A stretch of DNA of 64,000 bases, taken from contig NZ_CP009517.1 in the NCBI RefSeq assembly GCF_000970305.1, positions 4,464,001 to 4,528,000 on the forward strand. Reading direction: 5' to 3'. The DNA comes from Methanosarcina barkeri 3 (lineage in GTDB: Archaea; Halobacteriota; Methanosarcinia; Methanosarcinales; Methanosarcinaceae). This document shows positions 52,726 through 55,456 of this stretch, piece after piece. The notes under the pieces are model-generated. The model did not search any database. It saw only the letters and a list, made by a program, of their open reading frames with translations, and was not told the origin of the DNA. Every line of letters starts with the position of its first letter. The stretch's first letter is position 1. Made by a program: the position numbers and the translations under genes.

Positions 52726-52977
52726 TTATTTATAGATATCCCGTCGGTGCCCAATTTTAAGCACGAGTATTTTCAAGCATCTGCCCTGAATCTCCAGGAT
52801 TACTCTATAGTCACCGACCCTCAAACGATAATTTGGAGACCCGGCTAATTTTGTTACATAGCGAAACGGATCCTCCTTCAACTCAGAGACCTTATGAAAA
52901 ATGCGTTTTGCCAGCTGATGATCAAGTTTTCTGAGCTGATTGACCGCAGGGTCAGACCAGATGATTTGGTAGTGCAT
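52726..52977 (-). CDS. RelE/ParE-type toxin
   Basis: An 83-residue protein with the RelE-fold pattern IIWSDPAVNQLRKLDHQLAKRI, YRLRVGDYRVILEI and VLKIGHRRDIYK. RelE toxins cleave mRNA on the ribosome; the GHRRDIYK end and the basic residues are those of active members. ATG 52977 is preceded by gagcgaga; a TTG one codon earlier is possible. It lies 27 bp downstream of its antitoxin gene. Confidence 0.9.
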   Translation of the reverse strand: MHYQIIWSDPAVNQLRKLDHQLAKRIFHKVSELKEDPFRYVTKLAGSPNYRLRVGDYRVILEIQGRCLKILVLKIGHRRDIYK

Positions 52978-53004
52978 CAAAATCTCGCTCTTAGAATCAG
53001 CTTC

Positions 53005-53229
53005 TTAGAAACCTATCTCTTTTTTTAAATCTTCATGTGTTATGTATCTGCCTTCCTTAACAGCTTTTCGGGCAAGTTCGATTTCTTTTTTCGTTTCCTC
53101 ATTTAGTTCCTGGACTTCTTCCAGTAACCGCTCAAGTACCTCGTTGTAAGTTTCCCGCTTATAGATCTTCATTTTTTCAAGAGCTTCTTTAGTGCTCTGT
53201 TTCACTTGAATGGTTGTTGTCTCAGCCAT
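53005..53229 (-). CDS. Antitoxin of the RelE-type pair
   Basis: A 74-residue protein. The N-terminal strand-helix TTTIQVKQSTKEALEKMKIYKRETYNEVLERLL resembles ribbon-helix-helix antitoxins, and the acidic-basic C-terminus (EIELARKAVKEGRYITHEDLKKEIG) should wrap the toxin. Transcribed before the toxin. A perfect 34-bp palindrome lies 28 bp upstream, as expected for conditional autoregulation. Confidence 0.88.
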   Translation of the reverse strand: MAETTTIQVKQSTKEALEKMKIYKRETYNEVLERLLEEVQELNEETKKEIELARKAVKEGRYITHEDLKKEIGF

Positions 53230-53425: not shown

Positions 53426-53890
53426 TCATTTTTCTTCGGTTTCAAGATCTTCATCTTCCAATTCAAGTTCTGTCTGCAATTTAGATTCTTTTTTCTCTAA
53501 GACTTTCAAAACAGCAGAAACAGGGACAATTAACCCATTGATCATTACGAGATTATTAAAAGGATTGTCTTTTTGCACCCTTTCTGTGGAGAACTCCTCA
53601 TTAAAATATCCCATTTTGAACATATCGCGGATTTTCTTTGCTTTCTGGGAGACTGTGCTCTGGCTTGCCCCAAAATAATCACAGAGATTAGTAGCACTTA
53701 CGTAGGGCTCGAAACTTCTATCAAAAAGAAAGTTGATCTGCCCAAGTGCATAAACCACTGCAGCAGCCCAAATATCTAACCTTCCTGAAAGAAAAGGTAC
53801 CTGCCTTTTCCGGCTCATTTTATTGATTAGTTTTTGACACAGTATTTTATAGTCTTCATCAAGGTAGCTATCTGCAAATCCGTCTGTCAT
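53426..53890 (-). CDS. DUF6398-like protein
   Basis: A 154-residue protein whose core matches what I know of DUF6398: LDEDYKILCQKLINKMSRKR, LSGRLDIWAAAVVYALGQINFLFD and YFGASQSTVSQKAKKIRDMF. The last is an HTH-like segment within a cyclin/TFIIB-like helical fold. Function unknown. The acidic C-terminus (ELELEDEDLETEEK) is low complexity. From ATG 53890 the protein begins MTDGFADSY, which lacks the first helix of the domain; that helix is encoded in frame just upstream but separated by TAG (next entry). No ribosome-binding site precedes 53890. Confidence 0.65.
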   Translation of the reverse strand: MTDGFADSYLDEDYKILCQKLINKMSRKRQVPFLSGRLDIWAAAVVYALGQINFLFDRSFEPYVSATNLCDYFGASQSTVSQKAKKIRDMFKMGYFNEEFSTERVQKDNPFNNLVMINGLIVPVSAVLKVLEKKESKLQTELELEDEDLETEEK

Positions 53891-53938
53891 CTAGATAAGA
53901 GTGTCTTTCTTTTGTTGCACAAGTTCGCGGTCGCTCAT
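53891..53938 (-). other. In-frame N-terminal extension ending in TAG
   Basis: ATG 53938 opens MSDRELVQQKKDTLI followed by TAG (53891-53893) and then, without a gap, the ATG of the DUF6398-like protein. Joined through UAG the product reads as a continuous helix into DGFADSYLDEDY, where family members have an I-x-x-L-T-D-x-F pattern. Methanosarcina can insert pyrrolysine at UAG. Confidence 0.45.
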
Positions 53939-53992
53939 AGTTTATCTTCTAGATAGAGTTATAGATCTTCTAGATATAATTATAGATATACT

Positions 53993-54403: not shown

Positions 54404-55117
54404 TCAATAAGGACAGCGGGAAGAAACTCCCTCTACATATACTATCTGCCAGAAGTCCCCGACTTTTACTATTCCGAAGTTAAGGTACCAGCCTACCTTT
54501 GCCAGCGAACTCACCTCTTCCGAAACCTTAACAGGCCCAATTTCTCTGTAAGGATCCAGATAATCCTCTACCCATAACTTTCCGGGTTCGATCCTCCTTA
54601 TCTCAAAATCTCCCCCTTTCCACTCTGAACTCTCTTCAGCCTGATATGCGTCTACATAATCGCAGAGCAAACTGCCAAATTTCTGAACCTGAGAAGCAGT
54701 CTTTTTCCCTTTTTTTCTTATATTCCCGACAATCTCAGCAAATTCACTATAGTGCTCTGGATCAAGGTAGTCTTTTTCATAAGCCCAGGACAGGAATTTG
54801 CGGAAAAAACGCCGCGAAGTTTCAACGAAAGCCGCTCTCCCTCCAAAATCATTAATCAGATAATCCTCAAGGAAATATTCAATATCTAAAGGCGCAATAT
54901 ACGCAAGGTCAAAAACCTGGCAGTATTCTTTATGCTCGCTTTTCTGCTTCTCTTTATAGAGCTTCTGATCCTCTTCATAAAGGTCGTCGAAAGCACAAAC
55001 GTCAAGATATTCCTCAAAAAGAGAGATTAAATTTTCATAGTCCTGATAAGTCCTGGGACTCAGCTCTCTTTTTTGCTCTTCTAAAAATTCCAGAAAAGCT
55101 TCACCTATCGTCTTCAT
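54404..55117 (-). CDS. Integrase-SAM-like domain protein, long form
   Basis: A 237-residue protein. The N-terminal part (TIGEAFLEFLEEQKRELSPRTYQDYENLISLFEEYL) and a later FVETSRRFFRKFLSWAYEKDYLD resemble the helical core-binding (SAM-like) domain of tyrosine recombinases. There is no catalytic Arg/His/Tyr domain. A C-terminal beta-rich segment follows (FEIRRIEPGKLWVEDYL...VGWYLNFGIVKVGDFWQIVYVEG). Function unknown. Start placed at ATG 55117 because paralogues begin MKT/MTT; an upstream TTG (55147) adds ten residues. Middle member of three related genes on the same strand. Confidence 0.62.
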   Translation of the reverse strand: MKTIGEAFLEFLEEQKRELSPRTYQDYENLISLFEEYLDVCAFDDLYEEDQKLYKEKQKSEHKEYCQVFDLAYIAPLDIEYFLEDYLINDFGGRAAFVETSRRFFRKFLSWAYEKDYLDPEHYSEFAEIVGNIRKKGKKTASQVQKFGSLLCDYVDAYQAEESSEWKGGDFEIRRIEPGKLWVEDYLDPYREIGPVKVSEEVSSLAKVGWYLNFGIVKVGDFWQIVYVEGVSSRCPY

Positions 55118-55456
55118 GGTAGTTCTAGAAGATGATTGTTCTTCCAATTTTTCAAGATTTTGCCCTGCTTTTGAGAGTTTCCGGCCTACTCTCCCCTACA
55201 GGAGAAAGAACCTCTAAAGGTTTGAGAAATAAACGAAATAAATGGAATCAACAGAACTAACGGGATTAACAGAATAAGCAAAAAAAGAAAAGGACTATCT
55301 GAAAATAGGCTTCTCAGACCTCTATTCCAGAAAAAGGCTCTTCTAATACATATTTCTCTTCAAAACATTTTCTGGTGTCTCATCAATCCTCAAAGATTCA
55401 ATGAGTCTGAATAATTGCAACTGATTTTATACGACATTTTTATTGATCATGTGGCA
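55118..55456. other. 340-bp spacer between SAM-like paralogues
   Basis: AT-rich, without repeats or a coding frame that I can support. It separates the long and first copies. Confidence 0.5.

Follow-up and report, generated by a model that had tools for sequence, protein, structure and literature searches.

A single DUF6398 gene in the window (the whole 64,000-nucleotide stretch of DNA that was analysed) is located on the minus strand at 53938-53426, and its sole interruption is an in-frame TAG at codon 16 (53893-53891). This is a real gene carrying a CAG-to-TAG change that is private to the genome, and the host possesses the pyrrolysine (Pyl) machinery. The explanation that we favour, as probable, is neutral amber drift in a Pyl-decoding archaeon, comparable to that of Thg1 in Methanosarcina acetivorans, in which the residue at codon 16 would have no special role. 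The initial annotation had put the TAG forward as a candidate pyrrolysine codon. The genuine gene and the decoding-capable host were upheld, while the TAG, being private to this genome, is not an established pyrrolysine position.

The DUF6398 gene and its predicted fold

As initially described, the frame is contiguous around the one TAG and, with the TAG taken as sense, consists of 170 codons followed by TGA. The minus-strand reading from 53938 to 53426 is MSDRELVQQKKDTLI-TAG-MTDGFADSYLDEDY..., where the residues after the TAG begin MTDGFADSYLDEDYKILCQKL... (reading MSDRELVQQKKDTLI-TAG-MTDGFADSYLDEDYKILCQKL...). The features of the region are as follows.

53426..53938, minus strand: DUF6398 gene of 170 codons plus TGA with one in-frame TAG, from the frame, the PF19935 match and homologues
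53891..53893, minus strand: in-frame TAG at codon 16, a single C-to-T step away from an earlier CAG (Gln), from the CAG or GAG of relatives
53894..53938, minus strand: 15 upstream codons forming the first two-thirds of predicted helix 1 (residues 3-25), from homologues and the structure model
53888..53890, minus strand: ATG directly after the TAG, a possible restart codon with no Shine-Dalgarno match, from the alignment of relatives and a leader scan
53426..53890, minus strand: conventional ORF of 154 aa, which a standard gene caller would report, from the ORF list
53621..53695, minus strand: predicted helix-turn-helix (residues 82-106) of a TFIIB/cyclin-like fold, from the model and the fold search
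53956..53976, minus strand: 21-nt leader insertion, a second copy of TCTAGAAGAT absent from M. spelaei, from the comparison with M. spelaei

The Pfam family DUF6398 (PF19935), which has no assigned function, was matched over the whole domain at 140 bits when the upstream residues were included (3.2e-41, from model position 2) and at 137 bits by the conventional ORF (3.7e-40, covering model positions 5-106 of 106), both exceeding the Pfam gathering cut-off of 27.2 bits. With the upstream part the domain begins at residue 14, upstream of the TAG, and the upstream codons therefore contribute to the domain. The ATG at 53890 has no Shine-Dalgarno match, as had been claimed, yet the upstream ATG at 53938 also has only a 3-base match. 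More distant relatives feature a four-base match before the upstream start (an AGGA motif) and the window leader is without AGGA.

An AlphaFold2 model of the protein (alignment A1) had a mean pLDDT of 83.6. Helix 1 was predicted at residues 3-25 with a pLDDT of 90-97 and spans the TAG position, which agrees with the earlier proposal that the residues before the TAG are part of the gene and of its first helix. The best Foldseek match had an E of 0.035, a probability of 1.00 and a TM of 0.48 on the query, and most of the top 50 matches were TFIIB, Brf2 or cyclins. A sequence search of the PDB returned no solved homologue of DUF6398, and no paper in the library searched names the family. The protein has a predicted TFIIB/cyclin-like fold and probably binds DNA or protein, and a role in transcription or partner-protein binding would be a reasonable guess.

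Just downstream of the DUF6398 gene, window positions 52726-53229 (minus strand) include a ParE-type toxin gene (PF05016, 44.8 bits) beside a short antitoxin-like gene (DUF7557). Another gene at window positions 54404-55147 (minus strand) has an N-terminal part resembling phage integrase SAM-like domains (PF13102, 26.2 bits) and no recognised catalytic domain.

Relatives and the origin of the TAG

A homologue search was undertaken with 60 genomes, including 31 of Methanosarcina. The DUF6398 gene was present in 9 of the 31, a broken copy included, and 22 were without a match; besides the window genome, the gene was thus found in eight Methanosarcina genomes, one copy being broken. The best match, at 97% identity, was in the sister species M. 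spelaei (G016:C2; L002/L012), where the same 15 upstream residues are encoded by identical bases (45/45) and the TAG site is CAG (Gln). The codon is also CAG in L003, L004 and L005 and is GAG in L006, L007, L008 and L011. Beyond the sister, five distinct Methanosarcina copies have CAG or GAG. A TAG at codon 16 was found in no other Methanosarcina genome among the 31 searched.

Distant bacterial homologues (Syntrophaceae, Paenibacillus, Balneolaceae, Aquibacillus and others) have Gly, Gln, Lys or Glu at the site and continue the same N-terminal helix. Residue 16 is freely variable (Q/E/G/K), while nearby Leu14, kept in at least 90% of homologues, and Phe21 are conserved. Codon 17 specifies Met in all intact Methanosarcina copies and Leu in most bacterial homologues. 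An alignment of this kind had been suggested as a check on the pyrrolysine proposal: the upstream helix proved to be conserved, with Gln at the site in close relatives, but conservation of TAG or Lys was absent (Gln/Glu). Similarity to the 15 upstream residues was present among the homologues and the claim stands in that respect.

The alternative of a chance short frame was rejected, as homology runs through the site: the frame stays open across it in the intact Methanosarcina copies and in bacterial homologues, and M. spelaei matches every upstream base. A conserved pyrrolysine site was likewise rejected, as close relatives have Gln or Glu there. On this comparison the site is variable and ancestrally Gln in the clade, and the TAG is a lineage-specific C-to-T change after the split from M. 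spelaei. Since the relatives carry CAG or GAG and the TAG is private, it is a recent nonsense-type substitution rather than an established pyrrolysine position.

The G029 copy (L003) reads ATT at the upstream start, while a Shine-Dalgarno-like AGGA and the rest of the gene are retained, and the G002 copy is frameshifted and split between two frames. The gene or its N-terminus can therefore be lost without Pyl, and the genus can dispense with the DUF6398 gene.

UAG decoding in the host and other interrupted genes

The statement that the host reads UAG as pyrrolysine was borne out by a full set of pyl machinery and by UAG-containing methyltransferase genes. The genome encodes pylTSBCD in a pyl cluster with tRNA-Pyl(cta), PylS (410 bits), PylB, PylC and PylD, each above the NCBI cut-offs. 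One in-frame TAG apiece was located in three mtmB copies and one mttB, and two mtbB copies with a TAG interruption (640561 and 835267) were recognised from the familiar sequence flanking the stop rather than through a family search. The DUF6398 gene resembles mtmB, mtbB and mttB in having an in-frame TAG inside a homologous frame of the same genome. It differs in that their TAG is conserved and catalytic whereas its own is private and at a variable position.

The pylB gene itself ends in TAG, so UAG also terminates translation in this genome. TAG ends 79 of the 1749 predicted genes (4.5%) in 2.4 Mb of the genome, and a share of about 4-5% has been described for Methanosarcina, under which, it is argued, an in-frame amber can become a stable mutation (PMC4153887). 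It had been noted that all other stops checked in the window are TAA or TGA; this is correct (none of the 44 predicted genes has a TAG stop), although it is weak evidence because TAG is such a small share of stops in the 2.4 Mb (P = 0.13 at the 4.5% of the genome). In M. acetivorans, 20-30% read-through with Pyl is reported for an amber codon introduced into the bacterial reporter uidA, so a degree of decoding does not depend on context; a PYLIS-like downstream element has been reported as not essential (PMC2933860). No PYLIS-like RNA structure beyond chance was identified in the 100 nt from the UAG (z = 0.30). Some read-through of the codon-16 UAG as pyrrolysine is likely.

Under neutral amber drift, a single CAG-to-TAG substitution occurred at codon 16 of a real DUF6398 gene after the split from M. 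spelaei. Ribosomes starting at the ATG at 53938 would mostly terminate at the UAG, and a minority would insert pyrrolysine via tRNA-Pyl(CUA) to give the full-length protein. A long polar side chain at variable residue 16 of helix 1 should be harmless, and the mutation would persist because little product is lost or because the cell can do without the gene. Some truncated protein may come from restart at the adjacent ATG; the two routes are compatible. The gene has the pattern taken as the mark of drift, namely a sense codon altered at one base in a single lineage, with the rest of the gene intact and constrained. Among the properties of Pyl genes, the pyl machinery and homology in a single frame before and after the UAG were found, while conservation of the site and an RNA structure were not.

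An interruption scan covered 2.4 Mb of the genome, the window and the pyl region. Frames that were coding-like on both sides of the stop numbered 59 for TAA, 38 for TGA and 26 for TAG. Interruptions for which a homologue has a sense codon at the site numbered five for TAG, four for TAA and two for TGA (2.48 Mb), several of them gene boundaries or pseudogenes. In these raw counts TAG was in excess of its share among gene stops, although the TAA and TGA sets include gene boundaries and pseudogenes. Hexamer scans recovered mtbB and mtmB, most other matches being antisense frames, gene boundaries and degenerate surface-protein genes, and a strict scan by codon usage was underpowered. Among 112 orthologues shared with M. 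spelaei there was one clear TAG event (the DUF6398 gene) and one possible TGA event.

A second private TAG (genome position 2255596) is located in a gene encoding an MreA-family transcriptional regulator (G000:C1:2255234-2255644, minus strand; L162:15234-15644). This gene has 137 codons, scored 143 bits (cut-off 100) and carries its TAG at codon 17, which is GAG in the three relatives read, and at least 22 other Methanosarcina genomes match it essentially full length without a stop. The first ATG is preceded by GGGTGAT, a strong ribosome-binding sequence, so ribosomes should meet the UAG. The MreA domain match begins after the TAG, so the N-terminus may be dispensable. Five MreA-family genes were found in all, including the amber-bearing one.

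Other candidates were rejected: the strongest TGA control (1478466) is a gene boundary kept in relatives, the TAG candidate at 1395759 is upstream of the conserved region and corresponds to non-coding-like sequence in relatives, and the TAG candidate at 1843058 has no intact orthologue. Two surface-protein-like frames (G000:C1:1388346 and 278138, both minus strand; PKD-type repeats by eye) have TAG where paralogues have Gln or Trp; with a further in-frame TAA nearby, at 1388580, the former is probably degenerate. A further TAG-interrupted frame (G000:C1:397013, minus strand) has paralogues with Tyr, Ile, Phe or Thr at the site, the closest three at 52-62% identity.

Competing explanations and known systems

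Restart at the adjacent ATG is a serious rival to pyrrolysine read-through, since the codon next to the TAG is an ATG, from which a protein without most of helix 1 would be made, and we consider it a real if minority possibility. The UAG would terminate translation and the ATG at 53890 would re-initiate, or initiate independently, giving a 154-aa product without the first 16 residues and making pyrrolysine irrelevant. In Haloferax and E. coli, termination-reinitiation requires the two genes to overlap or to lie very close together, and the final 15 nt of the upstream gene are enough for it (PMC10666635), so a restart at 53890, where TAG and ATG are contiguous, is physically plausible; overlaps (-4, -1 nt) are, however, by far the commonest arrangement there, not abutting codons (PMC10666635). 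The restarted protein would keep DUF6398 model positions 5-106 of 106 but would lose 14 of the 23 residues of helix 1, conserved Leu14 included, and its ATG is the one without a Shine-Dalgarno match. The G029 copy, without the upstream ATG yet with the rest kept, fits restart, whereas the Leu at codon 17 in most bacterial homologues, which places the family start upstream, argues against it. The prior for a stop so near the start (codon 16, against 172 codons in the sister) is about 9%, and the TAG of the MreA-family gene is also early (codon 17, with an ATG at codon 22). Early stops in both genes fit restart as well as they fit tolerance of a harmless residue.

It is unlikely that the amber marks an early pseudogene, as one step in the loss of a dispensable gene that makes no useful protein. 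The patchy presence of the gene (9 of 31 genomes), the frameshifted remnant in G002 and a leader with a 21-nt insertion and without the AGGA of more distant relatives are consistent with decay, as is a slight, non-significant excess of changes on the branch of the window (own:sister 8:2 in the gene vs 21:18 in flanking DNA, P = 0.17). Compared with M. spelaei, the gene has six synonymous and five replacement codon differences, the TAG not counted, and a two-codon gap that is an insertion in M. spelaei. The resulting dN of 0.0149, dS of 0.0631 and dN/dS of about 0.24 are within the range of other pairs in the genus, and the substitutions indicate purifying selection on the DUF6398 gene. Further lesions were looked for in its 513 bases and none was found. 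The own-branch replacements R110G and E129N are to the state common in bacterial homologues, unlike random decay.

Private ambers in regulator-like genes (the DUF6398 gene and the MreA-family gene at 2255596) might tie full-length protein levels to charged tRNA-Pyl and so couple methylamine metabolism to transcription, with UAG near-neutral and partly sense, but we regard this as very doubtful. A base-calling error in the assembly would account for the TAG, as a single base decides it, but is highly improbable given that substitution errors are rare in a closed single-contig genome and that a similar private TAG occurs in the MreA-family gene. A selected pyrrolysine residue that makes a regulator depend on pyrrolysine supply would fit the predicted TFIIB/cyclin-like fold, and hence a possible regulator, in a genome with the pyl system, but is improbable in the extreme with the site nowhere conserved as TAG among the 31 Methanosarcina genomes, an RNA structure z of 0.30 and a pyl cassette that is constitutively expressed in Methanosarcina (PMC4153887).

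Neutral amber drift has a precedent in Thg1, the tRNA-His guanylyltransferase of M. acetivorans, in which an in-frame amber that is not essential is described as having arisen (Heinemann et al. 2009, as cited in PMC2933860 and PMC3639795). Both are ordinary non-methyltransferase genes of a pyl host with the amber in one species only and a residue that is apparently not essential. Thg1 differs in being reported as translated with pyrrolysine, while the DUF6398 gene, whose read-through is a prediction, has its codon at position 16 with an ATG directly after it, where restart is possible. The putative Pyl proteins of 'Ca. Methanomethylophilus alvus' (PMC4153887) are also encoded by TAG-interrupted genes with TAG-free homologues and low TAG stop usage, and have been read as tolerated ambers, although that organism belongs to another order and has many such genes, compared with few candidates in the window genome.

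The DUF6398 gene is a useful example of amber drift and not a new kind of system. It provides a polarised case (CAG to TAG, sister known) of an amber entering an ordinary gene under an expanded genetic code, an event that standard annotation, by starting the protein at 53890, would hide. Together, the DUF6398 and MreA-family genes are two natural sites for measuring the fate of an unprogrammed UAG, whether termination, pyrrolysine insertion or restart.
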